Shown piece after piece: positions 11,384 to 41,435 of a stretch of 41,435 nt of DNA. Position numbers and translations under genes: made by a program. The DNA comes from an uncultured Pseudomonadota bacterium. Lineage in GTDB: Bacteria; Pseudomonadota; Gammaproteobacteria; Steroidobacterales; Steroidobacteraceae. The notes under the pieces are model-generated. The model did no database searches. It was not told the DNA's origin and saw only the letters and a program-made list of their open reading frames with translations. How positions within the stretch are numbered: the first letter of the stretch is position 1; every line of letters starts with the position of its first letter. The DNA is taken from NCBI GenBank assembly GCA_903832085.1, contig CAIKZZ010000024.1, positions 1 through 41,435 on the forward strand. Direction: 5' to 3'.

Positions 11384-11438
11384 GCGCTGCTACTATGGGC
11401 ACCTTGTGCCCATACGCTCTTAAGTGACGCGGTGCCCC

Positions 11439-13301
11439 ATGACGATCCGCGTTTTACCGTCCCACCTTGTCAATCAAATCGCTGCCGGCGAGGTCATCGA
11501 GCGGCCGGCATCGGTTGTGAAAGAACTCGTCGAGAATGCACTCGATGCCGGTGCCCATCAGATCGATGTGGTGATTGAGCAAGGCGGACTCAGTCTGATC
11601 AGCGTGCGAGACGATGGCATCGGGATTGCAGCGGCTGATTTAGCGATGGCGCTTGAGCGTCATGCGACCAGCAAAATTGGTAGCTTGGATGATTTAGAAC
11701 ACATCGTGAGCCTCGGGTTTCGTGGCGAAGCGCTGCCAAGCATTGGATCCGTGGCGCGCTTAAGCCTGATCTCACGTCAGGCGGATATGAGTCATGGCAT
11801 GACAGTCACCGTGGATGGCGGTGTGGTGGTTGAGCCCATGCCCGCACCGCATCCGGTAGGCACCACGGTCAATGTGCGGGATTTGTTCTTTAATGTGCCA
11901 GCACGGCGTAAGTTCATGCGCAGTGCAGCGACTGAAGTAAGTCACATTGAGCGCATGCTAACGCGACTGGCTCTGGCACGATCGGATGTCGGCATCAGTC
12001 TGACGCACAATGGCCGACGCAGCATTATGGTCAGTCCTGCCCACGATCGCCATGGCATGGAAAAGCGCCTCGATGCGCTCATGGGCGATGGGTTTTTGGC
12101 GGGCGCACTGCACGTGTCGCATACCGCGCTTGGAATGACGCTTACTGGTTGGGTGGCGCTGCCCACCTACACGCGCTCGCAACCGGACGAACAGCATGTG
12201 GCGGTGAATGGGCGCGCCTTGCGCGATCGCTTGCTCACTAATGCCGTGCGCTTAGGTTTTCGCGATGTCATGTTTCATGGTCGTCATCCTGCCTATGTGC
12301 TGAACCTGACGCTTGATCCGGCACGGGTGGACGTGAATGCGCATCCGCAGAAGCTCGAGGTACGCTTTCGGGATGGACGTACGGTGCATGATTTTCTGAT
12401 GCGCACAGTTGAGGGTGTGCTTGCAGGGACGCGCCCTAGTGAGGGCGTGCCTGGGCCGGTGCCGAGTTCTGTCCGCGAGAGCTTGGGTGGCGATGCGGTG
12501 ATGGCTCGACACGTGCATGAACAGAGTCATTTAGGTTTCAGTGCCGAGCAGCACGGCGGGCGTTCCTATGCAGCGCGCGACGCACTTGGGGCACACGATC
12601 AGTCGGCGGCATCAGGCGCTGAGATTCCCGGCGAGGTGGATTGGACGGCATTTGCAGCGACCCATGGTGTGGCCGCTAAGAGTCAAGCAAGTGCACCTAC
12701 ACACAGTGGCGCGAGCGCTCCACCGCTTGGCTATGCGCTCGGTCAGTTGCACGGCATTTATATACTGACCGAAACGGCCCAAGGCATGGCGCTTGTGGAT
12801 ATGCATGCCGCGCACGAGCGAGTGTTGTATGAGCAGCTCAAAAATGAGCGCATCACTGGTGTCGTGGTACGGCAGCAGTTGCTGGTGCCGCAGGTGCTCG
12901 ACTTTAGCGAAAGTGATATTGAGATGGCGCTTGAGCACGCAACAGCGCTTGAGGAACTTGGTATTGTGATTGAGCGTCTGGCGCCGCGCCAGTTGGTCGT
13001 GCGAGAAATGCCAGTGGCCTTTGGCCAGCGGGATCTGGCGGGTTTAGTGCGTGACGCGCTGACCGAACTGACCGAGCGCGGCGATACCGCAGCCGTCGCG
13101 GTGGCTGAGGATCAGTTACTGGCGACGTTTGCATGCCATGCCGCGGTACGAGCGCACCGAAAACTCACCTTGCCTGAAATGAATGCATTGCTACGCGACA
13201 TGGAGCGCACCGATCGCGCGGATCAATGCAATCATGGTCGCCCGACGTGGATTTCTCTCACGCTGGCGGATCTTGATCGACTCTTTTTGCGGGGACGCTA
13301 G
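11439..13301 (+). CDS. mutL: DNA mismatch repair protein MutL
   Basis: Couples MutS mismatch recognition to strand incision and unwinding. The N-terminal GHKL ATPase has IAAGEVIERPASVVKELVEN, ENALDAGA, DDGIGIA, HATSKI and GFRGEALPSIGSV, followed by VNVRDLFFNVPARRKF and the transducer domain NAHPQKLEVRF. A flexible linker runs over about residues 340-425. The C-terminal dimerisation domain starts near YALGQLHGIYIL and includes DMHAAHERVLYE, ATFACHAAVRAH and DQCNHGRPTW. I see no DQHA-x2-E endonuclease motif (DMHAAHE stands there). I choose ATG 11439, which gives the usual MTIRVLP start; a GTG at 11424 adds five residues. The stop is followed directly by the ATG of miaA. Confidence 0.97.
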   Translation: MTIRVLPSHLVNQIAAGEVIERPASVVKELVENALDAGAHQIDVVIEQGGLSLISVRDDGIGIAAADLAMALERHATSKIGSLDDLEHIVSLGFRGEALPSIGSVARLSLISRQADMSHGMTVTVDGGVVVEPMPAPHPVGTTVNVRDLFFNVPARRKFMRSAATEVSHIERMLTRLALARSDVGISLTHNGRRSIMVSPAHDRHGMEKRLDALMGDGFLAGALHVSHTALGMTLTGWVALPTYTRSQPDEQHVAVNGRALRDRLLTNAVRLGFRDVMFHGRHPAYVLNLTLDPARVDVNAHPQKLEVRFRDGRTVHDFLMRTVEGVLAGTRPSEGVPGPVPSSVRESLGGDAVMARHVHEQSHLGFSAEQHGGRSYAARDALGAHDQSAASGAEIPGEVDWTAFAATHGVAAKSQASAPTHSGASAPPLGYALGQLHGIYILTETAQGMALVDMHAAHERVLYEQLKNERITGVVVRQQLLVPQVLDFSESDIEMALEHATALEELGIVIERLAPRQLVVREMPVAFGQRDLAGLVRDALTELTERGDTAAVAVAEDQLLATFACHAAVRAHRKLTLPEMNALLRDMERTDRADQCNHGRPTWISLTLADLDRLFLRGR

Positions 13302-27583: not shown

Positions 27584-28344
27584 CCGCAGACACGGCGCTG
27601 CGGATTAATAAGTACTTAAGTGAGCGCGGTCTGTGCTCGCGGCGTGAGGCCGATGCGTGGGTTGCGGCGGGGCGCGTTGCTGTCAATGGCACGGTCGCGA
27701 CGCTGGGTACCAAAGTGGCGACGTCCGATACGGTCACGGTCGATGGTAAAGCGGCGGGAGTGCCTGCGAAGCACATCTATATCGCGCTCAATAAGCCCGT
27801 GGGTATTGAATGCACGACCGATAGTCGGGTGGCTCATAACATTGTGAATTTTGTGGCGCATGCCGAGCGGGTATTTCCGATCGGTCGACTGGACAAAGAT
27901 TCTGAGGGTCTAATTCTGTTGACCAACGATGGCGATATCGTTAACCGCTTGCTGCGCGTTGAGCACCGTCATGAAAAAGAGTATGTCGTCACGGTGGATC
28001 GGCCGGTCACGGATGAGTTTTTACGCGGTATGGCACAGGGCGTGCGCATCTTGGATCGCGTCACCGCACCTGCACGCGCGCAACGTGTGGCGAAGAACGT
28101 CTTTCGTATTGTGTTGACGCAGGGGCTGAATCGGCAGATTCGTCGTATGTGCGATGTTTTTGGTTACACAGTGCGTCGCTTGGTGCGTGTGCGCTTTGTC
28201 AATATTGAACTCGAAGGTATTGAGCCCGGGCGCTGGCGCAATTTAACCGCGAAGGAGCTAGCAGGGCTCGTGCCTGCGCGCAGTACGCGCGCAACAGTAT
28301 TGATTGATCAGGCGTCGATCGCCACAGAATTTACTGAGGAGTAG
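27580..28344 (+). CDS. rluF: 23S rRNA pseudouridine synthase, RluF type
   Basis: Isomerises uridine to pseudouridine in 23S rRNA (U2604 in E. coli). The N-terminal S4 domain (LRINKYLSERGLCSRREADA) is followed by the RsuA/RluB/E/F catalytic domain: ALNKPVGIECTTD, VFPIGRLDKDSEGLILLTND with the catalytic Asp in G-R-L-D, HEKEYVVTVDRPVTDEFLRG, QGLNRQIRRMCDVFGY. The pattern is closest to RluF (NIVNFV, GLNRQIRRMC). The start TTG at 27580 overlaps the dnaB stop by four bases, so translation is likely coupled; alanine racemase or radA more often follow dnaB elsewhere. Confidence 0.92.
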   Translation: MTADTALRINKYLSERGLCSRREADAWVAAGRVAVNGTVATLGTKVATSDTVTVDGKAAGVPAKHIYIALNKPVGIECTTDSRVAHNIVNFVAHAERVFPIGRLDKDSEGLILLTNDGDIVNRLLRVEHRHEKEYVVTVDRPVTDEFLRGMAQGVRILDRVTAPARAQRVAKNVFRIVLTQGLNRQIRRMCDVFGYTVRRLVRVRFVNIELEGIEPGRWRNLTAKELAGLVPARSTRATVLIDQASIATEFTEE

Positions 28345-28351
28345 CTCGCCC

Positions 28352-29497
28352 TTGAAAATCCTTATTTTCGTGTTGAGCTTAAGCATCGGCATGGGTGCAG
28401 CATTCGCAGGCGAGCCGCGCGCACGCGATTTAGGAGTGCCGTTTCCAGGCACGCCGGGTCCTTTGAATGCGATCACGGATGTCAGTGGTGTGACGGTCGG
28501 GCATACCACTTTGATCGCGGACCCGGACTTAAAGCATGCAGTACGCACAGGTGTCACGGCTATTTTGCCGCGCGGTGCGGCGAGCGTGGATAAGCCGGTG
28601 TTTGCAGGTACCTTTGCTTTGAACGGCAATGGCGAGATGACAGGAACCGCGTGGATTGAGGAGTCCGGCCAGTTGGAAGGCCCGGTGTTGATCACCAATA
28701 CCCATAGCGTGGGCGTGGTGCGCGATGCGGTGATTGCCTGGCGCGTAAAGTCAGGTGCTGCTGATGCAAGCGGGTTTTGGTGGAGCTTGCCGGTCGTGGC
28801 TGAGACATATGATGGTTATCTCAATGATGTGAACGGCTTTCACGTAAAACCAGAGCACGTCTTTGCAGCGCTCGATACGGCCACCTCTGGGCCCGTGGCT
28901 GAGGGTAATGTGGGTGGCGGCACCGGCATGATCTGCCATGAATTTAAATGCGGTATCGGCACCTCATCGCGTGTGGTGCACGTCGGTAAAACGCCTTACA
29001 CGGTGGGCGTGTTGGTGCAGGCCAATTATGGTCGACGCGACACTATGCGTATCGCGGGCGTGCCCTTAGGCAATGAATTGAAAGAGCATCGCGTTTACAC
29101 GGATGTAGCAGATGAGCGCGGTGATACCGGTTCCATCATCATTGTGGTGGCGACTGATGCACCCTTACTGCCGCATCAGTTAAAGCGGTTAGCGAAGCGC
29201 GCGGCCTTAGGCCTTGCGCGTAACGGCAGCTATGCTGGCAATGGATCAGGAGATCTGTTTATTGCTTTTTCGACCGCGAATGAGGCAGCTTCACATGATG
29301 CGCCCATGAATCTCGCGAGTTTTGTGGGGAACGACTCCATTGATCCTTTGTTTATTGGAGCCGTGGATGCAACCGAAGAGGCAATCGTGAATGCACTCAT
29401 TGCTGCTAAAACCATGCATGGCCAGAATGGCCACTATGCAATGGCCATTCCGCACGATCAGTTGCGCAGTATTTTGAAGCGATTTAACCGCATGTAG
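28352..29497 (+). CDS. secreted P1/S58-family peptidase (DmpA/BapA-like aminopeptidase)
   Basis: An autoprocessed N-terminal-nucleophile hydrolase. From TTG 28352 (GAGGAG ten bases upstream) it has 381 residues with a signal peptide (KILIFVLSLSIGMGAAFA, cut before GEPRARD), so it acts in the periplasm. Family marks: RARDLGVPFPGTPGPLNAIT, DVSGVTVGHTTL, RTGVTAILPRG, GNGEMTGTAWIEESGQLEGP, ITNTHSVGVVRDAVI, VAEGNVGGGTGMICHEFKCG, and the cleavage region AGNGSGDLFIAFSTANEA, where Gly-Ser (Ser299) is the likely autoproteolysis site and nucleophile. Some members remove N-terminal beta-alanine from dipeptides, including carnosine; others act on D- or L-amino-acid amides. The substrate here is not known. 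It follows rluF by seven bases and is convergent with ltaE. Confidence 0.88.
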   Translation: MKILIFVLSLSIGMGAAFAGEPRARDLGVPFPGTPGPLNAITDVSGVTVGHTTLIADPDLKHAVRTGVTAILPRGAASVDKPVFAGTFALNGNGEMTGTAWIEESGQLEGPVLITNTHSVGVVRDAVIAWRVKSGAADASGFWWSLPVVAETYDGYLNDVNGFHVKPEHVFAALDTATSGPVAEGNVGGGTGMICHEFKCGIGTSSRVVHVGKTPYTVGVLVQANYGRRDTMRIAGVPLGNELKEHRVYTDVADERGDTGSIIIVVATDAPLLPHQLKRLAKRAALGLARNGSYAGNGSGDLFIAFSTANEAASHDAPMNLASFVGNDSIDPLFIGAVDATEEAIVNALIAAKTMHGQNGHYAMAIPHDQLRSILKRFNRM

Positions 29498-29510
29498 TCG
29501 ACATGCGGTT
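29486..29510. terminator. hairpin across the stop codon of the P1 peptidase gene
   Basis: AACCGCATG (29486-29494) and CATGCGGTT (29502-29510) form a perfect 9-bp stem; the peptidase stop TAG is in the 7-base loop. A 12-bp palindrome GGACCTAGGTCC (29516-29527) follows. Lying between convergent genes, it may end transcription from both sides, though the T-runs are short. Confidence 0.55.
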
Positions 29511-29543
29511 TGTCAGGACCTAGGTCCTCGGCAAGTCGTTTGG

Positions 29544-30596
29544 TTAGGGGGCTATTGCAGGCATGCGTGCCCGTGAGAGCAGCCCGTCTACATCGGTCGG
29601 TTGCGTGTTGTAGGCCGTGACGAGCCGAAACACCTGCGCGGTCGTGCCACGCGGCGCTGGCCAGTCGTAGAACTGATAGCCATCAGCGCGTAGTTCCGTG
29701 ACGATAGCTGCAGGTAAAGCGATAAAAATTTCATTGGCATCGACTGGTGCCATCAACGTGCCGCCGAGTGCCGCGAGTCCTACACTTAAGCGCTGGGCCA
29801 TTGCATTGGCATGACGCGCGTTCTTTAACCACAGATCGTTGTCCAAATAGCTCAGTAGCTGGGCGCTTAAAAAGCGCATCTTCGACCACAGGTGACCGCC
29901 ACGCTTGCGGTGCCTGGCAAAGGTCTGCTCTTTGCTTTTATCGAAAATAATTAACGCTTCTGCCGCCAGTGCACCATTCTTCGTGGCGCCGAGTGACAGT
30001 ACATCGATCCCACGCTTCCAAGTCGCCTCTGCCGGGCTGCAGCCTAGATGCACGAGTGCATTCGCAAAGCGGGCGCCATCCATGTGCACCGAGAGTCCGT
30101 GTGCGTGGGCGGCAGCAGTCATGGCATCAAGTTCGGCAAGGCTATACACCGTGCCCCATTCGGTCGCTTGCGAAACGGTGACTGCGGAGGGCTTGACATG
30201 ATGAATCCCCATGGAGGCTGCAAACGCCACGCCCGCATGAATATCCTGCGGGTTTATTTTGCCGTTCGCGCCTGCAAGGCCTAAGAGTTTAGCGCCGGCT
30301 GTATAAAATTCTGGTGCGCCACCTTCATCGGTCATGACGTGCGCGGTTTCATGGCAGTAGATGCCACCAAAGGCAGGGCTCATCGCCGCAAGCGCGATCG
30401 CATTGGCGGCCGTGCCGGTGGTGACCGGTAAGATCGCCAGCTCGCACTCAAAGAGTTCTTGGGCTTTTTGGGTAAGGCGCGTCGTCCAAGGGTCTGCGCC
30501 ATAGGACGGTGTGGGATCGGCATTTGCCGCGGCTATGGCCGCAAGAATCTCAGGACACGCGCCGGTCACGTTGTCACTGCTAAAAAATTTAACCAT
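29544..30596 (-). CDS. ltaE: low-specificity L-threonine aldolase
   Basis: PLP enzyme that splits threonine or allo-threonine into glycine and acetaldehyde. The 350 residues show FFSSDNVTGACPEILAAI, the SYGADPWT segment, PVTTGTAANAIALAA, the H-E-T-A-H-V motif with DEGGAPEF, GLSVHMDGARFANAL (PLP-pyridine Asp) and the PLP lysine in SLGATKNGALAAEALI. The start is ATG 30596. It is read on the same strand as hutI and starts 37 bases after the hutI stop, so the two probably share a transcript that begins at the hut operator. Co-transcription with a histidine gene has no obvious biochemical reason beyond amino-acid catabolism. Confidence 0.92.
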   Translation of the reverse strand: MVKFFSSDNVTGACPEILAAIAAANADPTPSYGADPWTTRLTQKAQELFECELAILPVTTGTAANAIALAAMSPAFGGIYCHETAHVMTDEGGAPEFYTAGAKLLGLAGANGKINPQDIHAGVAFAASMGIHHVKPSAVTVSQATEWGTVYSLAELDAMTAAAHAHGLSVHMDGARFANALVHLGCSPAEATWKRGIDVLSLGATKNGALAAEALIIFDKSKEQTFARHRKRGGHLWSKMRFLSAQLLSYLDNDLWLKNARHANAMAQRLSVGLAALGGTLMAPVDANEIFIALPAAIVTELRADGYQFYDWPAPRGTTAQVFRLVTAYNTQPTDVDGLLSRARMPAIAP

Positions 30597-30633
30597 GAGC
30601 CAAGCCTTCAGTGGTGGAGTGCGTCATTAAAAA

Positions 30634-31860
30634 CTAGGAGTGCAGCGTGCTCACGCGCCCGCGGCGAATGCGCGTGTGCAGACAGCTGTTCCCCAGCCAA
30701 TACCCAAATTCACGTGGATGGCTCAAATCCCACAGACACAAGTCGGCAGGCGCGCCCACGCTGACGGTGCCGGCGCCTTTTTTCATGCCAAGGGCGCGCG
30801 CCGCTTCCACGGTCGCGCCTCGCAAGGCTTCACTCGCCGTCAGGCCAAATTCAGCGCGTGCAAGACTTGCAGCTAAAGTAAGGGACGTGCATGGCGAGGT
30901 GCCCGGATTGCAATCGGTGGCAATCGCGAGCGGCACGCCTGCGGCTCGCAAGGCCGCGACGGGCGGCTTTTGTGTTTCACCGATGACGACAAAAGCGACC
31001 GGCAAGAGCACCGCGACGGTGCCCGCACGCGCCAGCGCATCGATGCCCGCGGGCGTGGTGTATTCCACATGATCGGCTGATAGCGCGCCATATTCGGCGG
31101 CAAGTTCGGCCGCTCCAATCGCACTTAACTGATCCGCATGCACCTTCACCGCAAAGCCATAGTCCCGCGCCACAGTGAGTACCTGTGCGCACTCTGTCCG
31201 TGTGAATGCGATTTTCTCGCAGAACACATCCACGGCGGTGGCGAGTTTTAAGCGCGCCGCTTCCGGAATCAGTTCGCGCGTCACTAAATCAATGTAGCCC
31301 TTGCGATCGTGCGCAAAGGCCTCGGGTAGCGCATGCAAGGCAAGTAAGGTCGTGTGAATTTCGACATCCAGCAGCGTCTCGAGACGCTGCGCCGCGCGTA
31401 GCATTTTTAATTCGCTCGCCACATCAAGGCCATAGCCCGACTTGATTTCGATTGTGGTGATGCCATCGCGTAGTAAGGCTTGGGCGCGCGGCAGGGCAGC
31501 CTGCGCGAGCGCTTCCTCGCTTAAGTTGCGGGTGAGGGCGACGGTGGAGCGGATACCGCCACCGGCAGCCGCGATCGCCTCATAGCTCGCTCCTTCCGCG
31601 CGGAGCGCAAAATCAAGTGCTCGGTCCCCGCCAAAGACTAAATGCGTATGGCAATCAATGAGCCCCGGAGTCATCAGGCGACCCGCGCAGTCGTTCACTG
31701 TCTGCGCAAGCGTGGCAGGCTCGCTCGGGAGACTCGCTTGCGGGCCGACCCAGGTGATGCTCCCGTCGCGGATGGCGACCGCCGCTGTTGGTAGCAGGCC
31801 AATGCCATCGGGCCCGTTGAGGGTCGCGACGGTTGCATTGATCCAAAGCGCATCCCACAT
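30634..31860 (-). CDS. hutI: imidazolonepropionase
   Basis: Opens the ring of 4-imidazolone-5-propionate to N-formimidoyl-glutamate, third step of histidine breakdown. The 408-residue amidohydrolase shows TPGLIDCHTHLVFGGDRALD (metal-binding His-x-His), TTIEIKSGYGLD, VDVFCEKIAFT, KVHADQLSAIG, ADHVEYT and the metal Asp in ATDCNPGTSPC. It is read leftwards from the shared hutI-hutF region and its start is 54 bases from the palindromic operator. The gene downstream is ltaE. Confidence 0.96.
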   Translation of the reverse strand: MWDALWINATVATLNGPDGIGLLPTAAVAIRDGSITWVGPQASLPSEPATLAQTVNDCAGRLMTPGLIDCHTHLVFGGDRALDFALRAEGASYEAIAAAGGGIRSTVALTRNLSEEALAQAALPRAQALLRDGITTIEIKSGYGLDVASELKMLRAAQRLETLLDVEIHTTLLALHALPEAFAHDRKGYIDLVTRELIPEAARLKLATAVDVFCEKIAFTRTECAQVLTVARDYGFAVKVHADQLSAIGAAELAAEYGALSADHVEYTTPAGIDALARAGTVAVLLPVAFVVIGETQKPPVAALRAAGVPLAIATDCNPGTSPCTSLTLAASLARAEFGLTASEALRGATVEAARALGMKKGAGTVSVGAPADLCLWDLSHPREFGYWLGNSCLHTRIRRGRVSTLHS

Positions 31861-31914
31861 GACACACGGCCTTTGTCAAAACCCACGGCAGGGGGCTATT
31901 ATCGCAGGAGTTAA

Positions 31915-31928
31915 GCTGTATATACAGC
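31915..31928. promoter_or_regulatory. putative HutC operator
   Basis: GCTGTATATACAGC is a perfect 14-bp palindrome midway in the 83-base gap between the divergent hutI and hutF. TGTATATACA is the core reported for HutC operators in gammaproteobacteria, and hutC is in the same cluster. The central TATATA may also serve as -10 box for hutF, whose start lies 15 bases further on; a GATAAT facing hutI lies close by (reverse strand near 31899-31904). Repression of both arms, relieved by urocanate, is the expected scheme. I see no second copy elsewhere in the window. Confidence 0.8.
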
Positions 31929-31943
31929 CCACGAGGTCACCGC

Positions 31944-33305
31944 ATGAAATACCGCGTTGCGCGCGCCTTATTGCCTGATGGAGTTCATCGCAATCAGTGC
32001 ATTGAGGTGGGTCGTGATGGCCGCATCGCCTCAGTCGCGGCCGCGCGCGGGGACGAGCCGCTGATGCCGGGGCTGTTATTGCCTGGAATGCCAAACTTGC
32101 ACAGTCACGCATTTCAGCGCGCCATGGCGGGCAGTGCGGAGGTGATGGCGGGTGCCGAGCATTCCTTTTGGGGCTGGCGCGCTGTGATGTACCGCTTTTT
32201 AGAACAGCTGACGCCCGAGGATGTCAGCGCCATCGCCGCCTTTGCCTATCTTGAGATGCTCGAAGCCGGTTACACCTCGGTGGCTGAGTTTCATTATCTG
32301 CACCACACGCTCTCGGGCGCGCCGTACCCGGAGCCTGCCGCGATGGCCGATGCCGTGCGCGCAGGTGCGGCGCGGGTGGGGATGCGTCATCTGTTATTGC
32401 CCACACTGTATCAACAGGGAGGCTTTCAGGGCGAACCTTTAAGTGGCGCTCAACAACGTTTTTATCATGACACGGATGCTTTTCTGCGGTTTTACGAGCG
32501 GCTGCGCCTACGGGCCACAGGCCTGCACACCACAGGAATTGCGCTACACAGTCTGCGTGCGGTGCCCAAGGATGCCCTGCTGGCGGTGACTGATGCGGTG
32601 GATGGGGCGCGTCAGGCGTGCGTGGTGCACATTCACGTGGCGGAGCAAGCGCGCGAAGTGAGCGACAGCGTCGCGGCTACGGGTCGCCGGCCCGTGGAAT
32701 GGTTGCTGGAAACGGGGCGAGTGTCGGAGCGCTGGTGCCTCGTGCATGCCACGCACGTGAGCGCGACCGAGTTGCGAGACATGGCAGCGAGTGGCGCGGT
32801 GGTCGGCTTGTGTCCGACCACCGAAGGAAACTTGGGTGATGGACGCTTTCCCTTGGATGTGCTGCTGCAGGAAGGGGGACGCTTCGGTATCGGCTCGGAC
32901 AGTCACGTGTCGCTGGATCCGCGTGAGGAACTGCGCTCACTCGAGTACACGCTGCGCCTATGGCGGGAACGGCGTGTCATCAGTGCAAGTACTGCCATTC
33001 CCCACTGCGGCACGTATTTGTACACGCAGGCACTGGCTGGCGGTGCCCAAGCCATGGGCGAGACCTCCCACGGGCTCGTGGTTGGAGCGGTGGCAGATAT
33101 GGTGCTGCTCGATACGGATCGCGCCGAGTTCGCAGGTCTTACGGATGATGCATTGCTCGATGCATGGCTGTTTGCACCGCGACCACAGGCGGTGAGTGCT
33201 GTGTGGGTGGGTGGGCGAGCGGTCGTGCACGCCGGGCGTCATACGGCTCACGCCGAGGTGGCAGCATCCTATCGCGCTGCGCTTAAGCGCCTCGCAAAAG
33301 CCTAG
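31944..33305 (+). CDS. hutF: formimidoylglutamate deiminase
   Basis: Converts N-formimidoyl-glutamate to N-formyl-glutamate and ammonia, the first half of the two-step route (HutG finishes it). The 453-residue amidohydrolase has LPGMPNLHSHAFQRAMAGSA (metal His-x-His), FWGWRAVMYRFLEQLTPEDV, AEFHYLHH, CVVHIHVAEQ, WCLVHATHVS, VGLCPTTEGNLGDGRFPL and FGIGSDSHVSLDPREELRSL with the metal Asp. GAGG lies seven bases before the ATG. Its stop is three bases before hutC. First gene of the right-hand hut arm. Confidence 0.95.
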   Translation: MKYRVARALLPDGVHRNQCIEVGRDGRIASVAAARGDEPLMPGLLLPGMPNLHSHAFQRAMAGSAEVMAGAEHSFWGWRAVMYRFLEQLTPEDVSAIAAFAYLEMLEAGYTSVAEFHYLHHTLSGAPYPEPAAMADAVRAGAARVGMRHLLLPTLYQQGGFQGEPLSGAQQRFYHDTDAFLRFYERLRLRATGLHTTGIALHSLRAVPKDALLAVTDAVDGARQACVVHIHVAEQAREVSDSVAATGRRPVEWLLETGRVSERWCLVHATHVSATELRDMAASGAVVGLCPTTEGNLGDGRFPLDVLLQEGGRFGIGSDSHVSLDPREELRSLEYTLRLWRERRVISASTAIPHCGTYLYTQALAGGAQAMGETSHGLVVGAVADMVLLDTDRAEFAGLTDDALLDAWLFAPRPQAVSAVWVGGRAVVHAGRHTAHAEVAASYRAALKRLAKA

Positions 33306-33308
33306 CGC

Positions 33309-34016
33309 ATGAACGCGGTCGTAAAACCGTTGTATGAACTCGTCAAGAACCATGTGCTTGGGCGCATCAGGTCAGGCGAACTAAAACCCGGTGCGCGTGT
33401 TGAGTCCGAGTATGAGTTGGTGCGTGCACTCAAAGTCTCGCGGATGACCGCAAATCGGGCGTTGCGTGAGTTGGTGCAATCGGGTGTGCTTGCGCGCGTG
33501 CCTGGCAGCGGTACCTTTGTGGCGGATTTGCGCTCAGCCGCGCATCCTTTACAAATTCGTAACATTGCAGCTGAAATTCAAGGCCGCGGTCATGTGCATC
33601 GTGCGCGAGTGATGCTTAAAGAATTAGTCAAGTGTCCAGCGGAAATTGCTCGACTCTTAGGTCTTTCTGATGGCTTGGCATTTCATTCATTAATCGTTCA
33701 TCACGAGAATGAGGCGCCGTTGCAGGTCGAGGAACGTTTCGTCAATCCGTTCGTCGCGCCCGATTATATGTCGGTTGATTTTACGCGTACCACACCACAT
33801 GAGTACTTGATGGCGGTGGCTCCCTTGGAGCGAGTCGAGCATGTGGTGCGCGCTATGGCGCCGAACCCAACGGTTGCGAGCTTGCTGCAGCTGGAGTTGA
33901 GCGAGCCGGTACTGTTAATCGAACGCACGACGTGGAGTCAGGAGCTACCGGCATCTTTTGCTTGTCTTTATCACGCCGGCAGCCGCTTTGAGCTGCGTGG
34001 TGTATTTTCAATCTGA
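33309..34016 (+). CDS. hutC: histidine utilisation repressor (GntR family)
   Basis: Represses the hut genes and is released by urocanate in known cases. The N-terminal winged helix ([50 protein letters not shown]) is followed by a UTRA ligand domain ([61 protein letters not shown]) typical of the HutC subfamily. The 235 residues match. It sits between hutF and hutU in the same direction, so it would control its own expression through the operator at 31915. Confidence 0.94.
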
Positions 34017-34021
34017 GTCCA

Positions 34022-35722
34022 ATGTCAAAGAGTAAGGCTATGAGCAACATCAATCTGAATCTCAAAGATCCATCGCGCGTGATTCGTGCAGCGATCGGTA
34101 CACAGTTAACTGCAAAGAGTTGGCAGACGGAAGCGGCATTGCGCATGTTATGCAATAACCTTGACCCTGCTGTGGCGGAGCGGCCCGATGAACTCGTGGT
34201 TTATGGTGGTATCGGACGCGCAGCGCGCAACTGGGAATGCTTTGATGCCATTGTCAAAGCCTTAACAGTGCTGGGTGATGATGAGACACTGTTGATTCAA
34301 TCTGGAAAGCCGGTGGGGGTGTTTCGTACCCACGCCGATGCGCCAAGGGTACTGCTCGCCAATTCAAACCTCGTCCCTCATTGGGCAACTTGGGCGCACT
34401 TTAATGAACTCGATCGGCGTGGGCTGATGATGTACGGTCAGATGACTGCAGGCTCTTGGATCTACATCGGTAGCCAAGGCATCGTGCAGGGAACTTATGA
34501 GACCTTCGTTGAGATGGGTCGTCGGCATTATGGCGGCGATTTGACCGGGCGATGGATCTTGACTGCGGGCTTAGGCGGTATGGGTGGAGCCCAGACCTTG
34601 GCTGCCACCATGGCAGGCGCCTGTATTTTAGCAATTGAGTGCGACAAAACGCGCATCGCGAAACGCATCGAGACGGGTTATGTCGATGAGGAGGCCGATT
34701 CCTTGGATGATGCGATGCATCGCATCAAGCTCGCCATTCAAAAAGGAGTCGCGCGTTCGATTGCGCTGTGTGGCAATGCGGCCGAAGTCTTGCCTGAGTT
34801 GCTGCGTCGTGGGATTAAACCAGATGCGCTCACCGATCAAACCTCGGCTCATGACCCGGGAAATGGCTATCTGCCGGCAGGTTGGACGGTGGATGAGTGG
34901 CAGCGAGCGCGCACTGCAGATCCTGAATCGGTCGTGCGCGCAGCGCGTGCCTCGATGGCCGCGCATGTACGCGCGATGCTTGAGTTTCAGCGCCTAGGGG
35001 TGCCGACCTTTGATTACGGCAACAATATCCGTCAAGTCGCGTTCGAAGAAGGCGTGACCGATGCCTTCGAGTTTCCGGGGTTTGTGCCAGCTTATATACG
35101 GCCACTTTTTTGTCGTGGCATTGGTCCTTTCCGTTGGGTTGCTTTGTCGGGTGATCCTGAGGACATTCGGCGCACAGACGCCAAGGTGAAGGAGTTAATT
35201 CCTGATGACCCGCACTTGCATCGTTGGCTTGATATGGCGGGCGAGCGGATTCGGTTTCAGGGATTGCCTGCACGCATCTGTTGGGTGGGGTTGGGGCAGC
35301 GTCATCGTTTAGGGCTCGCCTTTAACGCCATGGTTAAAAGTGGTGAACTCAAGGCGCCCATCGTCATTGGTCGGGATCATTTGGATTCGGGTTCTGTGGC
35401 GAGCCCGAATCGCGAGACGGAGGCGATGCAGGACGGCTCGGATGCGGTGTCGGATTGGCCGTTGTTAAACGCGCTCCTAAATACCGCTGGTGGTGCGACA
35501 TGGGTGTCCTTGCACCACGGCGGTGGCGTCGGAATGGGGTTCTCGCAGCACTCCGGTGTCGTGATCGTGTGTGATGGCACCGATAGCGCGGCGCGGCGCA
35601 TCGAGCGCGTGCTGTGGAACGATCCTGCGACCGGCGTGATGCGCCATGCCGATGCCGGTTACGTGGAGGCGATTGAGTGCGCTAAGGAGCGTGGTCTTCA
35701 CTTGCCGATGGTGACCGGCTGA
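34022..35722 (+). CDS. hutU: urocanate hydratase
   Basis: Adds water to urocanate to give imidazolonepropionate, using NAD+ as an electrophile. The 566 residues show [56 protein letters not shown], the NAD-binding [89 protein letters not shown] and [19 protein letters not shown]. The first ATG (34022) is used; a second at 34040 (MSNINLNL) is possible. hutH, which normally supplies urocanate and often sits next to hutU, is absent from this window. Confidence 0.97.
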
Positions 35723-35761
35723 TATGTGTGCTTACCGCCTAATGATGGTGCATTTGCCGTG

Positions 35762-36556
35762 ATGTCCATGTCAGATGCAGTGTGCATATCCCATCAGGGT
35801 GTCTCGCCGCTGGTGATCAGCTTGCCGCATGTGGGTACGGAGCTTCCGGCGAAGATTGCGTCCCAATTGACGGCGCGGGCTCGCCAAGTGGAAGACACCG
35901 ACTGGCATGTGGATCAGCTGTATGCCTTTGCAAAAGATGCGGGCGCATCTTGGGTGGCGGCGCGTTATTCACGGTATGTGGTGGACTTAAATCGGCCGCC
36001 TGATAACGCCTCGCTCTACCCGGGTCAGGCAACCACAGGCTTGGTTCCCACCGAGAGCTTCGATGGGGAGAGCTTGTATGAGGGTCTGCTGCCTGATGCG
36101 CAGGAACTGCAAGCACGTCTGTCAGAGTATTGGGCTCCTTATCACGCGGCACTACAGAGGCACTTGGCTAATGCGGTTGCTCGTCACGGGTATGCCTTAC
36201 TACTCGATGGGCATTCAATACGCAGTCATGTGCCGCGCTTATTTGCAGGCCGGCTGCCTGATATCAATTTAGGCACCAATGATGGTGCATCCTGTTTACC
36301 GCATGTGATTGAGGCAGTCACGCGCGTGTTGCAGACACAGACCGCGTTTTCATTTGTACTAAATGGCCGGTTTAAGGGTGGCTACATTACGCGTCACTAT
36401 GGCAATCCTGAGGCTTCGGTGAGTGCGCTACAGATCGAACTCGCGCAGAGCAGTTACATGGATGAGGCAGGCACTGCATTTGAGCACGCCCGCGCACTGC
36501 CGCTGATTCACACGCTACAAAGTATTGTCTTCGCCATGCAAAGTGCGGCCCCATGA
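35762..36556 (+). CDS. hutG: N-formylglutamate deformylase
   Basis: Splits N-formylglutamate into formate and glutamate, last step of the HutF/HutG route. From ATG 35762 it has 264 residues: SPLVISLPHVGTELP, DTDWHVDQLYAFAKDAGASW, VAARYSRYVVDLNRPP, YPGQATTGLVPTESFDGESL, YALLLDGHSIRSHVPRLF, FSFVLNGRFKGGYITRHYG, and LQIELAQSSYMDE, all of the FGase family (PF05013). An ATG two codons on (35768) and a GTG at 35726 are other options. Its stop overlaps the next ATG (ATGA), tying it to the aminotransferase. Confidence 0.95.
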   Translation: MSMSDAVCISHQGVSPLVISLPHVGTELPAKIASQLTARARQVEDTDWHVDQLYAFAKDAGASWVAARYSRYVVDLNRPPDNASLYPGQATTGLVPTESFDGESLYEGLLPDAQELQARLSEYWAPYHAALQRHLANAVARHGYALLLDGHSIRSHVPRLFAGRLPDINLGTNDGASCLPHVIEAVTRVLQTQTAFSFVLNGRFKGGYITRHYGNPEASVSALQIELAQSSYMDEAGTAFEHARALPLIHTLQSIVFAMQSAAP

Positions 36557-37866
36557 GTATGGAACGCGATACCGTTTTGCATAGCTGGTGTGTGCAAGCC
36601 GAATGGGATGCGCCCACCATCGTTGGTGGTGAGGGGGCTTATTTTTTTGATGCCGCGGGCCAGCGCTATCTGGATATGAGTAGTCTTGCGGAGTGCATGA
36701 ATTTAGGTCACCAGCACCCTCGCGTGGTGCGCGCCATACAGGAGCAGGCACAGAAACTGTGCTTTGTGACCAACGCCTGGGGCGCTGAACCGCGCGCGAC
36801 CCTTGCGCAATTGCTCCTCGAGAAAAGTGGCTTTGAGGGCGGACGCGTCTTTTTTACACTAGGCGGCGCGGATGCGAACGAGCATGCAGTGAAATTCGCA
36901 CGACTCGCTAGTGGCAAGGGGCAGGGTCAGGTGATTACGCGCGAACGGTCCTATCACGGCGCCAGTTTCGCGACGATGGCATTATCCGGTGACTCACGCA
37001 CAGCCACGCAGGTAAAGCCTGCACAGTTTGGTGTGTTGCGGGTGAGCGCGCCGTATGCCTATCGATGCCCTTACGGCACGGCATCGGAGACTGAGTGCGG
37101 CGAGGCTGCAGTGAGGCACATTGAGCGCACAGTGGAGTCGGTGGGCGCAGGCGCGGTCGCTGGCGTTCTGATGGAAACGAATGCGGGGACCAACGGTATT
37201 GTCGCGCCACCTAATTATTGGCCTTTATTGCGCGGCCTAACCGAGCGGCACGGAATTTATTTAATCGCCGATGAAGTGATGAGCGGTTTTGGGCGCTGCG
37301 GCGAGTGGTTCGCGTGGCAGCGCTACGGCGATGCGGGTCGACCTGATCTGATGACCCTCGCCAAGGGGCTCACCGGGGCGCACGCGCCTTTAGGTGCCGT
37401 GGTAGTCAGCGCAGCCATCGCGGCGCGACTCGACAAACAGATGTTGTACACAGGGCTGACCTATTGTGGTCACCCCTTGTCCTGTGCGGCCGGCGTGGCC
37501 GCTGTGCGCGCATACGAGGATGAGTCGCTGATCGAGCGCTCCCGGGTATTGGGGCAGCAGTTGTTCGAGCAAGCGCGCGAACTACAGAGTCGCCATGCGG
37601 TCATTGGTGATGTGCGCGGTGGGGACGGGTTATTCGTGGTGGTTGAACTTGTGCGCGATCGTGCGACGCGTGAACCGTTGTCGCCATGGGCGAGTACACA
37701 CCCGGCGCTGCGCGCCTTGGTTGCAAAGGCGCTAACGCACGGCGTGTCCTTTGCCTGTAGGGGCAATCTACTCATTCTGGCGCCGCCACTTGTGATTGAG
37801 GAGCAGGCGCTCACGGATGCAGTGCACTTACTGGACCGCTTGCTGGCGAACGGGGTGTGGTCGTGA
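36553..37866 (+). CDS. class III aminotransferase (taurine/beta-alanine:pyruvate-like)
   Basis: PLP-dependent omega-aminotransferase, moving an amino group from a terminal amine to a keto acid. The 437 residues fit fold type I class III: AYFFDAAGQRYLDMSSLAEC, NLGHQHPRVVRAIQEQAQKL, FFTLGGADANEHAVKFARLA, RERSYHGASFATMALSGDSR, LIADEVMSGFGRCGEWFAWQ with the PLP Asp, and the PLP lysine in LMTLAKGLTGAHAPLGAVVV, then GLTYCGHPLSCAAGVAAVRA. The SYHG-GD and GLTY-GHPL parts resemble taurine:pyruvate aminotransferases, which also take beta-alanine. The exact substrate is open. It overlaps hutG by four bases and the next gene by four, so it belongs to the hut operon. Confidence 0.88.
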   Translation: MSMERDTVLHSWCVQAEWDAPTIVGGEGAYFFDAAGQRYLDMSSLAECMNLGHQHPRVVRAIQEQAQKLCFVTNAWGAEPRATLAQLLLEKSGFEGGRVFFTLGGADANEHAVKFARLASGKGQGQVITRERSYHGASFATMALSGDSRTATQVKPAQFGVLRVSAPYAYRCPYGTASETECGEAAVRHIERTVESVGAGAVAGVLMETNAGTNGIVAPPNYWPLLRGLTERHGIYLIADEVMSGFGRCGEWFAWQRYGDAGRPDLMTLAKGLTGAHAPLGAVVVSAAIAARLDKQMLYTGLTYCGHPLSCAAGVAAVRAYEDESLIERSRVLGQQLFEQARELQSRHAVIGDVRGGDGLFVVVELVRDRATREPLSPWASTHPALRALVAKALTHGVSFACRGNLLILAPPLVIEEQALTDAVHLLDRLLANGVWS

Positions 37867-39428
37867 GTTTTAAGCTGACGTACTCGACGATGTTCGACCC
37901 GCCGGAGAGTATGCACGTCGAGTTTGAACGTGCGCTTGGCGTGGTACGTGGGCGACTAGGCGCCGACCATCCGCTTTATATCAACGGCTTGAATGTTTGG
38001 GGTGCAGGTTTTATAGAGAAAACGAGTCCCATCCGACACGAGCTCATTGGACGTTTTTCGGCGGCGGGTCGCGCGGAGTTGGAGGCGGCCGTCACTGCTG
38101 CTGCTCGTGCGCACAGCGCATGGCGCGGCCTTGAGGTGAGCGCGCGTGTCGCGCTCATGCACCGCGTGGCGCAGCTGATCGAGGAGCGCGTCTATTTAAT
38201 TGCGGCAGCATTGTGTCTGGAGGTGGGTAAAAACCGTCTTGAGGCGCTCGCTGAGACCCAAGAGACGGCGGATTTTTTCAAAATTTACGCGGATGAGTTT
38301 CAAGCGAGTGGAGGCTTTGATCGGCCACTGCCGGATGATCCGTTGCCCAATGTGCGCTCACGCAATCGCAGCGTTTTGAAGTCCCATGGGGTCTGGGCCG
38401 TCGTTGCACCGTTTAACTTCCCACTCGCGCTCGCCGGTGGTCCGACAGCAGCTGCGCTTGTGACCGGCAACACCGTCGTTCTCAAAGGTGCGAGTGATGC
38501 GCCGTGGGCCACACGCTTGCTTGCCGACTGCATTGCTGATGCGGGTGTGCCACCGGGCGTCTTTAATCTGCTCTGGGGTCAAGGTAGTGAGGTGGGTGCG
38601 GCGCTGTGCCAGCATCCAAACATAGCCGGCCTTACTTTTACTGGCTCCTATGAGGTGGGCATGTCCTTGTGTCGGCACATGGTGTCGGGTGCCTACGTGC
38701 GTCCGTGCATTGCTGAAATGGGCGGCAAGAATGCCTGCATCGTGACCGAAAGTGCAGATCTCGATCAGGCCGTGCCCGGGATTATTCGGTCAGCCTTTGG
38801 TCTGGGTGGGCAAAAGTGCTCGGCGCTGTCGCGGCTGTATGTAGAGGCGTCCGTTATGGACAAACTCGCGCAGCGGTTAATTCAGGCGATGCAGGCGCTC
38901 GCGATTGGGGACCCCACGCAGCGACAGCACTGGCTGGGGCCGCTGATTTCGGAGCGTGCTGTGGCGAAGTACGAGAGCTTTATTCAACAGTTACATGCTG
39001 GTGGCGCACAGATTGTCAGCGGGGGTAGCCGTTTAGTCACTGGTGAACTGGCCAAGGGGTGCTATGTCGCGCCTACGCTTGCCGCCGCTGCAGCGACGCA
39101 CCCGCTCATGAGTGTGGAGATGTTTGCGCCCATCTTGATGATGAGCGCAGTACCTGATGTAGAACACGGTGTCGCACTTGCCAATGACACACCGTTAGGT
39201 TTAACGGCAGGAATCTATGGTAGCGCCAGCGACGTGGCTTACTTTTTAGAGCACATTGAAGCCGGAACCTTGTATGTCAATCGTCAGCTCGGAGCCACCA
39301 CAGGCGCTTGGCCTGGATATCAGGCATTCACTGGCTGGAAAGGTTCTGGTTCAACCAACAAAGGCATAGGCTCGTTTTATTATTTATCCCAGTACTTACG
39401 CGAGCAGTCACAAACGGTGATTGAGTGA
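37863..39428 (+). CDS. aldehyde dehydrogenase, P5C/glutamate-semialdehyde dehydrogenase-like
   Basis: NAD(P)-dependent aldehyde oxidation. From GTG 37863 the protein has 521 residues. It has VAPFNFPLALAGGPTAAALV and NTVVLKGASDAPWA (cofactor binding), LTFTGSYEVGMSLC, the general-base Glu in CIAEMGGKNACIV, and the catalytic Cys in GLGGQKCSALSRLYVE, then GTLYVNRQLGATTGAWPGYQ. The G-Q-K-C-S-A-x-S-R block and the C-terminal YYLSQYLREQSQT place it near the RocA/PutA P5C dehydrogenases, but the usual PFGG near the C-terminus reads AFTGWKGSGS, so the substrate may differ. The start overlaps the aminotransferase stop (GTGA); the pair most likely works in series, amine to aldehyde to acid. Confidence 0.88.
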   Translation: MSFKLTYSTMFDPPESMHVEFERALGVVRGRLGADHPLYINGLNVWGAGFIEKTSPIRHELIGRFSAAGRAELEAAVTAAARAHSAWRGLEVSARVALMHRVAQLIEERVYLIAAALCLEVGKNRLEALAETQETADFFKIYADEFQASGGFDRPLPDDPLPNVRSRNRSVLKSHGVWAVVAPFNFPLALAGGPTAAALVTGNTVVLKGASDAPWATRLLADCIADAGVPPGVFNLLWGQGSEVGAALCQHPNIAGLTFTGSYEVGMSLCRHMVSGAYVRPCIAEMGGKNACIVTESADLDQAVPGIIRSAFGLGGQKCSALSRLYVEASVMDKLAQRLIQAMQALAIGDPTQRQHWLGPLISERAVAKYESFIQQLHAGGAQIVSGGSRLVTGELAKGCYVAPTLAAAAATHPLMSVEMFAPILMMSAVPDVEHGVALANDTPLGLTAGIYGSASDVAYFLEHIEAGTLYVNRQLGATTGAWPGYQAFTGWKGSGSTNKGIGSFYYLSQYLREQSQTVIE

Positions 39429-39519
39429 ATAAGCGTGCTTCTGTCATGAGTTGTGCAAGGGTCAGGGTTGTGAGCCTCATATGACGTGCGCGGCTTAAAT
39501 AAAGGATGAGACACAGTCG

Positions 39520-40857
39520 ATGAAAACACCACATATAAAAACTGAGCTACCGGGGCCTGTAGCGCGACAGATGCTCGCGCGTGACGCTGAGTACGTGTCG
39601 CCCTCTTATCCACGGGATTATCCGTTTGTGATGTCGCACGGTCGTGGCGCGGAGGTGTGGGATGTGGATGGCAACCGATTTTTGGACTTTGCCGCGGGCA
39701 TCGCTGTTTGCAGTACAGGACATAGCCACCCGCGCGTTGTTGCGGCAGTGAAAGCCGCCGCTGACCAGTTTTTGCATATCTCCTCAGATTATTGGCACGA
39801 AGGTCAGATTCGACTGGCTGAGATGATGAACGCACTGGCGCCGATGAATGAACCCGTGATGAGTTTTTTTACGCAATCCGGTACCGAGAGTGTGGAGGGT
39901 GCTTTAAAGCTCGCGCGTTACGTGACTGGTCGGCCACGGTTCATTGGTTTCTTGGGTGGTTTTCATGGCCGTACCATGGGCTCGCTGTCGTTCACGTCCA
40001 GTAAATACACACAGCAAAAAGGATTTTTTCCAACGATGCCTGGCGTGACGCACGTCCCTTATCCAAACAACTATCGACCGATTTTTGCAGGTAGCGACCA
40101 AGGTGTGGCGGTGCTTAATTACATTGAGAACGTGCTATTTGCTAGCAACGTCCCTGCAAGTGAAGTCGCGGCCATTTTGATTGAGCCCATACAAGGCGAG
40201 GGCGGTTATGTAGTGCCCCCTGATGGCTTCCTTAAGGGGTTGCGTGCGCTGTGTGATCGGCACGGCATCTTGCTAATTTTTGATGAGGTGCAATCGGGAG
40301 TGGGTCGGACCGGTGCGATGTTCGCAGCGCAACACTGGGGTGTGGCTCCGGACATCATGTGTTTGGCGAAAGGCTTAGGCTCAGGGCTACCGATAGGCAT
40401 GGTGGTTGCCAAGAAGACAATCATGTCGCAGTGGGCCCGTGGCGCTCACGGGAATACCTATGGGGGTAATCCACTGTGCTGCGCGGCTGCCATTGCTACA
40501 TTGGAATTGGTGAGTGAGTCCTACCGCCAGAATGCGGCGAATGTGGGCGCTTACTTTTTGGATCAGCTTGCCGGCTTAGCTGCGCGTCACAGTGTCATTG
40601 GGCAGGTGCGCGGTAAGGGGTTGATGATAGGTTTGGAATTTGTGACCGACCCTGTGAGTCGGAAGCCTGCGCGCGCGCTATGCGACCGGCTGATTACACG
40701 CAGCTATCACAACGGGCTGATCTTGCTGTCGTGTGGCGTGAGTACGGTGCGCTTTATGCCGCCACTGATGATCACTCGAGCGGATGTAGACGAGGCGATT
40801 CATATACTGGAGTCGAGCTTAGTGGAAGAATTAGCGACTCCCGCAGCGCTCAGTTAA
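39520..40857 (+). CDS. class III aminotransferase (4-aminobutyrate/ornithine-like)
   Basis: A second omega-aminotransferase, 445 residues. Marks: VWDVDGNRFLDFAAGIAVCS, TGHSHPRVVAAVKAAADQFL, FFTQSGTESVEGALKLARYV, GFLGGFHGRTMGSLSFTSSK, AAILIEPIQGEGGYVVPPDG, LLIFDEVQSGVGRTGAMFAA, the PLP lysine in IMCLAKGLGSGLPIGMVVAK and HGNTYGGNPLCCAAAIATL. It resembles the broad group of GABA, ornithine and acetylornithine aminotransferases and only distantly the taurine-like one upstream. An AAAGGATGAG lies upstream of the ATG, and 91 bases separate it from the dehydrogenase, so it may have its own promoter or be the last gene of the operon. Confidence 0.88.
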   Translation: MKTPHIKTELPGPVARQMLARDAEYVSPSYPRDYPFVMSHGRGAEVWDVDGNRFLDFAAGIAVCSTGHSHPRVVAAVKAAADQFLHISSDYWHEGQIRLAEMMNALAPMNEPVMSFFTQSGTESVEGALKLARYVTGRPRFIGFLGGFHGRTMGSLSFTSSKYTQQKGFFPTMPGVTHVPYPNNYRPIFAGSDQGVAVLNYIENVLFASNVPASEVAAILIEPIQGEGGYVVPPDGFLKGLRALCDRHGILLIFDEVQSGVGRTGAMFAAQHWGVAPDIMCLAKGLGSGLPIGMVVAKKTIMSQWARGAHGNTYGGNPLCCAAAIATLELVSESYRQNAANVGAYFLDQLAGLAARHSVIGQVRGKGLMIGLEFVTDPVSRKPARALCDRLITRSYHNGLILLSCGVSTVRFMPPLMITRADVDEAIHILESSLVEELATPAALS

Positions 40858-40871
40858 GCAGGTATTTCTTC

Positions 40872-41435
40872 ATGGAAATCTCCCTGCCGGTGTCGCCGTC
40901 CGCCGAGCGCAATAAAGGACCCATACTGGACGTGCTGCAGCGCGTGTTGCCCGCCCGTGGCCTTGTGCTTGAAGTGGCCTCTGGCACTGGCCAACACATC
41001 GTACACTTTGCGCAAGCCATGCCCCAGTGCACATGGCAGCCCACCGATGTGGATCCGGCGCGGATGGATGTTTTACGCGCACGAATTGCTGATGCTCGGT
41101 GTCTTAATGTGCGGGCGCCGCTGTGTTTGGATGTGCACGCAGTGCCTTGGAATCTGCAGATGGCGGCGCCGCCTGTTGCCGTCCTTGCTATAAATATGAT
41201 TCACATTGCGCCATGGTCGGCCACACGCGCTTTTTTTGTGGGCGCGAGTCACTGTATGGCGGCCCAGACGGGGAGCATCGCGTTGCTCTATGGTCCTTAT
41301 CAAGTCGATGGAGCGCCCATGGGTGAGTCAAACGCCGCATTTGACCTACGCCTTCGAGCAGAAAATCCGACTTATGGGGTACGTGATTTGAGGGAGGTGA
41401 GCGCCATTGCTGCAGAGTATGGGTTCTCAGACCCA
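40872..41435 (+). CDS. DUF938 SAM-dependent methyltransferase-like protein (cut by window end)
   Basis: An open frame of 188 codons from ATG 40872 to the window edge. The sequence APSAERN-like start (SPSAERNKGPILDVLQRVLP), LVLEVASGTGQHIVHFAQAM, WQPTDVDPARMDVLRA, NMIHIAPWSATRAFFVGASH, LYGPYQVDGAPMGESNAAFD, LRAENPTYGVRDLREVSAIA matches the DUF938 family closely. It has a Rossmann-type SAM motif (E-V-A-S-G-T-G). Its substrate is unknown. Only about 20 residues at the C-terminus should be missing. It lies 14 bases after the second aminotransferase. Confidence 0.93.
   Translation, partial: MEISLPVSPSAERNKGPILDVLQRVLPARGLVLEVASGTGQHIVHFAQAMPQCTWQPTDVDPARMDVLRARIADARCLNVRAPLCLDVHAVPWNLQMAAPPVAVLAINMIHIAPWSATRAFFVGASHCMAAQTGSIALLYGPYQVDGAPMGESNAAFDLRLRAENPTYGVRDLREVSAIAAEYGFSDP

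Follow-up and report, generated by a model that had tools for sequence, protein, structure and literature searches.

A histidine-utilization operon joined to a conserved two-aminotransferase and aldehyde dehydrogenase module in a genus of Steroidobacteraceae, with a beta,omega-diamino acid as candidate substrate

In a 41,435-nucleotide stretch of DNA from an uncultured bacterium of the Steroidobacteraceae (GenBank assembly GCA_903832085.1, contig CAIKZZ010000024.1; the whole stretch is hereafter the window), the histidine-utilization genes hutF, hutC, hutU and hutG run on the plus strand, in the same direction, into genes for a class III aminotransferase (AT1), an aldehyde dehydrogenase (ALDH) resembling 1-pyrroline-5-carboxylate (P5C) dehydrogenase (P5CDH), and a second class III aminotransferase (AT2), with hutI on the minus strand. 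A known hut operon has here merged with a conserved module at the level of the genome, and probably also in its regulation. As to function, we favor, at a probability of roughly 0.4, the reading of AT1-ALDH-AT2 as a pared-down version of a widespread module converting beta,omega-diamino acids to 3-oxoadipate, with beta-lysine as the best candidate substrate, that has come under the hutF promoter. More tentative is the broader proposal that the full set, AT1-ALDH-CoA-transferase-AT2 with or without PcaF and PcaR, may be a route, aerobic and so far undescribed, by which members of several phyla degrade beta-lysine or a similar beta,omega-diamino acid via 3-aminoadipate and 3-oxoadipate, and that in one genus of the Steroidobacteraceae the PcaR-type regulator may have been swapped for HutC, making the route urocanate-switched together with histidine use. 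The AT1-ALDH-AT2 module was named in no title or abstract among the literature matches listed. If the proposal is true, a conserved gene set whose present matches are to broad families of aminotransferases and aldehyde dehydrogenases alone would gain an end product and a testable substrate, beta-amino acids would prove to be a common food of soil and freshwater bacteria, and the joining to hut would clearly exemplify how a catabolic module can give up its regulator and adopt the one of a neighboring pathway.

The evidence for a conserved module comes from loci outside the window. These were drawn from a family sample of 100 genomes (the window's own included), in which an AT1 orthologue was defined by at least 62% identity, and from a scan of named genomes of which the best 80 loci were used; the locus counts given below describe these loci. 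After removal of 14 loci repeating an included contig, 92 distinct AT1 loci were left, with record labels that included Pseudomonadota, Acidobacteriota, Gemmatimonadota, Verrucomicrobiota, Chloroflexota and Myxococcota, many of them on metagenome bins that may be mislabeled. Genes were placed in these loci by tblastn mapping and codon-scored gene calls. Where the sequence continued for 5.2 kb or more past AT1 (67 loci), the order was ALDH-CTa-CTb-AT2 in 47, CTa and CTb being proteins that match the CoA-transferase family, and ALDH-AT2 in 10; the rest had CTa-CTb-AT2 (3), ALDH-CTa-CTb (3), AT2 (2), ALDH (1), or ALDH-CTa (1). The window, with AT1, ALDH and AT2 in order, shows the ALDH-AT2 arrangement, but was left out of this tally, its contig being too short downstream.

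The partners of the module resemble those of 3-oxoadipate metabolism. A CatIJ-type CoA-transferase was present in 62 of the 92 distinct loci; plasmid relatives of CTa with 62-66% identity were among the matches listed, and in all three records inspected a thiolase (annotated as PcaF in two of them) comes after the CoA-transferase pair, with pca or cat genes around it. Upstream, where 79 loci extended for at least 2.6 kb, a divergent IclR-type (PcaR-like) regulator lay beside AT1 in 39 and a PcaF-like thiolase in 31. In Dyella japonica, the divergent regulator scored above the PcaR/PcaU cut-off (303.9 versus 284.75) and the thiolase above that of the PcaF equivalog (626.7 versus 597), and in another genome (G025) PcaR and PcaF beside AT1 were likewise both above cut-off. 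Leeia combines AT1-ALDH-AT2 with a thiolase and a different CoA-transferase pair, its alpha subunit of the PcaI/ScoA family, in place of CTa/CTb. Within the family sample, AT1 orthologues occurred in 26 genomes; hut lay beside AT1 in six, all of the window's genus, and was not seen there in the other 20, in which all neighborhoods were inspected, some on short contigs. An initial interpretation made from the DNA alone (the sequence-only reading) had taken the aminotransferases and dehydrogenase for a separate amine-to-acid module not needed for histidine itself, a view that the analysis supports. Since it recurs without hut and in the company of a 3-oxoadipate-type CoA-transferase, a PcaF-like thiolase and a PcaR-like regulator, AT1-ALDH-AT2 is not a histidine module.

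The CoA-transferase, thiolase and regulator of the relatives resemble, or pass the cut-offs of, the families of the lower branch of the beta-ketoadipate pathway (CatIJ/PcaIJ, PcaF and PcaR), but in the module the place of the ring-cleavage enzymes would be taken by a dehydrogenase and a pair of aminotransferases. These partners suggest that the module ends at 3-oxoadipate, and two aminotransferases plus one dehydrogenase ending there would require a C6 acid carrying amino groups on carbons 3 and 6, which is beta-lysine. Judging from enzyme families and gene context, AT2 would remove the omega-amine of beta-lysine (3,6-diaminohexanoate) to yield 3-amino-6-oxohexanoate, an omega-aldehyde that would cyclize to a five-membered pyrroline, a ring of the kind handled by P5CDH-type enzymes and thus a plausible fit for the P5CDH-like ALDH. 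Oxidation by ALDH would then give 3-aminoadipate, from which AT1 would remove the beta-amine to leave 3-oxoadipate, and in relatives the CatIJ-type CoA-transferase and PcaF-type thiolase would carry this on to succinyl-CoA and acetyl-CoA. In the window's genome the module would be a reduced one, its CoA-transferases gone and the start of AT1 lying inside hutG.

The closest solved relative of AT1 is a taurine:2-oxoglutarate aminotransferase (6jix, E 4.9e-83), although the gene context of AT1 is a different one. Relatives about 45% identical to AT1 occur in Deinococcus and Thermus, where a methylmalonate-semialdehyde dehydrogenase adjoins in both records inspected, which points to a beta-amino-acid setting. 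AT2 is closest to 7vno (E 6.6e-110). Among solved structures, ALDH comes closest to P5CDHs (best E 1.3e-82), and it retains the CSA and TGA motifs that hold the amino-acid substrate in P5CDH, in agreement with the P5CDH-like character first assigned to it; among 72 distinct relatives, CSA was kept in 71 and TTGA in 70, one of the two TTGA misses being a cut-off fragment. It differs from P5C dehydrogenase itself in scoring far under the curated cut-offs, below all three P5CDH equivalogs (373.2 versus 648, 346.5 versus 659.65, and 253.9 versus 485.2 bits). Moreover, the window's genome has another gene, for a P5CDH above cut-off (632.3 versus 485.2 bits) in an open frame of 1071 amino acids, a PutA-like length. 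Recycling of glutamate-derived semialdehyde, a role the sequence-only reading had offered for the cluster, is not supported, on these two grounds.

The same aminotransferase-dehydrogenase-aminotransferase logic could also serve an alpha-diamino acid, either ornithine or lysine, the latter being taken to 2-oxoadipate. In favor of this, beta-lysine is much less common than lysine, AT2 belongs to an ornithine/gamma-aminobutyrate (GABA)-type family, and the one module permease scored resembles basic amino-acid/polyamine antiporters, albeit under cut-off (257.5 versus 409.05). We nonetheless consider this unlikely, as it leaves the 3-oxoadipate-type CoA-transferase and the PcaF-like and PcaR-like partners unexplained, ALDH scores higher as a P5CDH (373.2 bits) than as a piperideine-6-carboxylate dehydrogenase (252.6 bits), both under cut-off, and the genome has another P5CDH. 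In the 33 loci with 9 kb on either side of AT1, the recurrent neighbors were a thiolase (19 loci), S58 and S9 peptidases (16 each), a TolB-like protein and an M20 peptidase (15 each), and an APC permease (8); an M3/M32-like peptidase was in none of these 33 and in nine of the 92 distinct loci. Given the recurrent peptidases, the substrate of the module may come from peptides or amides. Separately, Dyella and its relatives carry a conserved divergent block (L102, 1815-9895, minus strand) of a PcaR-type regulator, PcaF, an M20 peptidase, a tetratricopeptide repeat (TPR)-sulfotransferase and a TonB receptor.

The joint between hut and the module is tight in the window. The start of AT1 lies inside hutG, with ATGA at 36553 giving an overlap of four bases, and the GTG start of ALDH at 37863 lies inside the end of AT1 with another four-base overlap, while 91 bases separate ALDH from AT2. 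Both overlaps had been noted from the sequence alone, as had the alignment of AT1 and ALDH with hutF-hutC-hutU and the aminotransferase gene behind them; a direct reading of the bases at 36553 and a measurement of the AT1/ALDH overlap agree. A scan of 28000-41435 for consensus promoters returned 31873-31902, before hutF, as the sole promoter-like site (one found versus 6.5 expected in shuffled sequences), and hence none of its own before the aminotransferase. Just downstream of it, at 31917-31926, is the only TGTA-N2-TACA site of the window, matching the HutC consensus of an earlier report (PMC12977541); another has the hutIG site of Pseudomonas aeruginosa departing from this consensus (PMC12772324). 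The exact 12-mer containing it, CTGTATATACAG, occurs once per genome in six of the seven genus genomes and lies before hutF in every hut-linked locus, with one HutC-consensus site per hut-linked stretch. The seventh genome (G072) has no exact copy, only a one-mismatch 12-mer still within the HutC consensus. Looser matches in the window were a one-mismatch site at 5507 and four two-mismatch sites, including 32406 in hutF and 38835 in ALDH.

The regulators beside AT1 were mutually exclusive: across the 79 upstream-complete loci, the 39 with an IclR-type gene and the eight with hutG had no locus in common. None of the seven genus genomes has a PcaR-type regulator above cut-off (G072 and G083 gave weaker matches), as against all five comparison genomes, which had been picked for an IclR gene beside AT1. 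The module thus looks to have been captured by HutC, is probably co-expressed with hut, and a single histidine-sensing switch probably governs both. With the module downstream of a presumably HutC-controlled hutF promoter and the PcaR-type regulator gone, induction by urocanate would be expected. It could be argued instead that the linkage is functionless and that two unrelated catabolic operons simply became neighbors once in the ancestor of the genus, a view to which the small share of hut-linked loci (eight of the 92, window included) and the loss of module parts (the CoA-transferases in the window's genome, ALDH in G023) lend some weight. We regard it as improbable given that the linkage is retained in six of seven sampled genus genomes, that regulators have apparently been exchanged, and that neither a second promoter-like site in the scanned region nor a second HutC-consensus site in the window was found.

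How far the linkage extends within the genus differs by level of detail. In G072, hut is present without an AT1 orthologue. The sequence-only reading would have been refuted by a joint seen in one strain only; hut beside AT1 was found in at least eight distinct loci, yet the four-base hutG/AT1 overlap was present in the window's genome only among the hut-linked loci. Elsewhere hutG and AT1 are spaced by 97 (L055), 93 (L057) or 82 (L059) bases, or have a gene for a 259-amino-acid protein between them (L056, L058, L084 and L124), of which the L056 copy (8617-9396), the one searched against Pfam, is a short-chain dehydrogenase. The four-base AT1/ALDH overlap was more general, occurring at 40 of 67 measurable junctions, with seven further junctions not measurable. 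A tree built from 91 AT1 sequences places seven of the hut-linked ones in a supported group. A threonine-aldolase-like gene lies beside hutI in seven of the eight hut-linked loci, L056 being the one in which it was not detected, and is also near hut in G072. In one further locus (L082, genome G048), AT1 matches in two pieces, the gene being probably broken or the contig in error.

Several observations weigh against the route to 3-oxoadipate from beta-lysine, or against its transfer to hut. The lysine 2,3-aminomutase family was found in none of the seven genus genomes (compared with seven of the 26 AT1-bearing genomes and 55 of the 100 in the family sample) and was absent from the 109 module stretches searched. 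Internal formation of beta-lysine by this enzyme is thereby not supported, and beta-lysine would need an external source, such as methanogen osmolytes, antibiotics or modified elongation factor P. In the window's genome, a search with CTa, run with no positive control, gave no match; a CoA-transferase family search that does find CTa/CTb in relatives yielded only a different pair, on contig C7; and all thiolases were under the PcaF cut-off (best 310.1 versus 597). PcaF was above cut-off in 14 of the 26 AT1-bearing genomes, some of which are incomplete, and a PcaF-like thiolase was near AT1 in none of the eight hut-linked loci. Seven Gemmatimonadota loci (L121, 9102-9899, minus strand, and six more) carry, close to AT1, a dimethylargininase-like gene for which we have no explanation, the single copy scored reaching 256.7 bits against a cut-off of 340. 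Within the genus, the cluster of G023 lacks ALDH, and the window's own AT1 sits apart on a long branch, all eight hut-linked AT1s grouping together in 8% of bootstrap trees, which still allows a single origin for the eight.

A parallel is offered by Bacillus subtilis, whose yodT-yodS-yodR-yodQ-yodP-kamA genes probably have a role in beta-amino-acid or beta-lysine metabolism and include an acetyltransferase/deacetylase pair. As compared by description only, that operon also has a class III aminotransferase and CoA-transferase subunits, but it contains kamA, whereas the module described here has a second aminotransferase and ALDH instead. KamA activity is documented, and YodT is reported as uncharacterized (PMC6522883).

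On the far side of hut, the window carries a gene for an S58 aminopeptidase, likely exported judging from a signal peptide recognized by eye. The family match spans the whole protein, with DmpA and BapA closest, placing it in S58; its nearest solved structures are 1b65, an aminopeptidase (E 4.9e-113), and 3n2w, a beta-peptidyl aminopeptidase (E 9.7e-101). It differs from DmpA and BapA in its setting, a hut/aminotransferase cluster. An S58 gene lies on that side of hut in four of the eight hut-linked loci (the window, L055, L057 and L059) and was not seen in L056, while the remaining hut-linked stretches end early. Overall, 31 of the 92 distinct AT1 loci have an S58 gene, and 27 of these 31 are without hut; the hut-free ones are all labeled as Pseudomonadota or as members of the family, so the S58-AT1 association is, so far, one within Pseudomonadota only.

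The S58 gene brings in the main rival to our reading, the use of carnosine, which comes near the suggestion of the sequence-only reading that the cluster degrades a histidine-containing compound. S58 would split beta-alanyl-histidine, Hut would take the histidine, AT1 would make malonate semialdehyde from beta-alanine, and the genome's methylmalonate-semialdehyde dehydrogenase would finish the route. Of the solved structures DmpA is nearest to the window's protein, and DmpA and Pseudomonas BapA/BapF are reported to act on carnosine (PMC9235088). Moreover, S58, hut and AT1 share one cluster in the four loci just named, relatives of AT1 stand beside methylmalonate-semialdehyde dehydrogenase, and that enzyme is above cut-off in all seven genus genomes. 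However, the 27 hut-free loci imply that the link between S58 and AT1 is not about histidine, and carnosine leaves no role for AT2, ALDH or the CoA-transferases, present in five of the eight hut-linked loci (two of the other three being cut short by the end of the contig or stretch). A histidine-containing compound is possible, a carnosine-type peptidase being indeed in the cluster, but the module partners point to 3-oxoadipate and not to histidine, and we consider carnosine an unlikely substrate. Two further routes were rejected. Conversion of polyamines to beta-alanine or GABA fails to account for the 3-oxoadipate-type partners, and a 6-aminohexanoate (nylon-type) route would leave one aminotransferase idle, with no beta-oxidation genes recurring in the neighborhood. 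Nothing in the data points to a histamine-type route.

Table 1. Features of the hut-AT1-ALDH-AT2 region, in window coordinates
Feature	Position	Strand	Evidence
S58 (DmpA/BapA-type) aminopeptidase	28304-29497	+	PF03576, 404 bits
Threonine-aldolase-like pyridoxal phosphate enzyme	29544-30596	-	PF01212, 188.2 bits
hutI, imidazolonepropionase	30634-31860	-	TIGR01224, 433.2 versus cut-off 298.15 bits
Sigma70-like promoter, TTGTCA-18-TATTAT	31873-31902	+	Consensus scan
Candidate HutC operator, CTGTATATACAG	31916-31927	no strand	Fits TGTA-N2-TACA
hutF, formimidoylglutamate deiminase	31944-33305	+	TIGR02022, 531.7 versus cut-off 413.05 bits
hutC, GntR-family repressor of histidine utilization	33309-34016	+	TIGR02018, 265.3 versus cut-off 220 bits
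hutU, urocanate hydratase	34022-35722	+	TIGR01228, 970.2 versus cut-off 375 bits
hutG, N-formylglutamate deformylase	35726-36556	+	TIGR02017, 336.8 versus cut-off 278.75 bits
AT1, class III aminotransferase, proposed beta-amino-acid aminotransferase	36553-37866	+	PF00202, 263.1 bits
ALDH, P5CDH-like dehydrogenase, GTG start	37863-39428	+	Closest solved relatives P5CDHs
AT2, class III aminotransferase, proposed omega-aminotransferase	39520-40857	+	PRK05769, 578.7 versus cut-off 552 bits

The five hut genes of the window all score above their NCBIfam equivalog cut-offs (Table 1), and, together with the HutC-consensus site, hutF, hutC, hutU, hutI and hutG correspond at equivalog level to a Pseudomonas-type operon with the HutF/HutG branch. 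The window departs from that type in having hutH on another contig, AT1-ALDH-AT2 appended, and the threonine-aldolase-like gene beside hutI. The interval first singled out, 31861-40857, left hutI and the relevant S58 gene outside. It had also been remarked that hutH is missing; it is indeed not in the window, yet it is present elsewhere in the genome, on contig C41 beside ettA (605.1 versus an equivalog cut-off of 539.15 bits). This gene is one of four PF00221 matches in the genome. Two histidine-ammonia-lyase-like genes on another stretch of the genome (L076, 7666-9231, plus strand, and 10603-12099, minus strand) scored 460.6 and 168.1 against the same hutH cut-off of 539.15; near a TonB receptor, they could be other ammonia-lyases or aminomutases of the 4-methylideneimidazole-5-one (MIO) type. 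A distant ammonia-lyase-like protein of 607 amino acids (L077, 7840-9663, minus strand; 165.9 bits against hutH) is encoded near a metabolite/H+ symporter.

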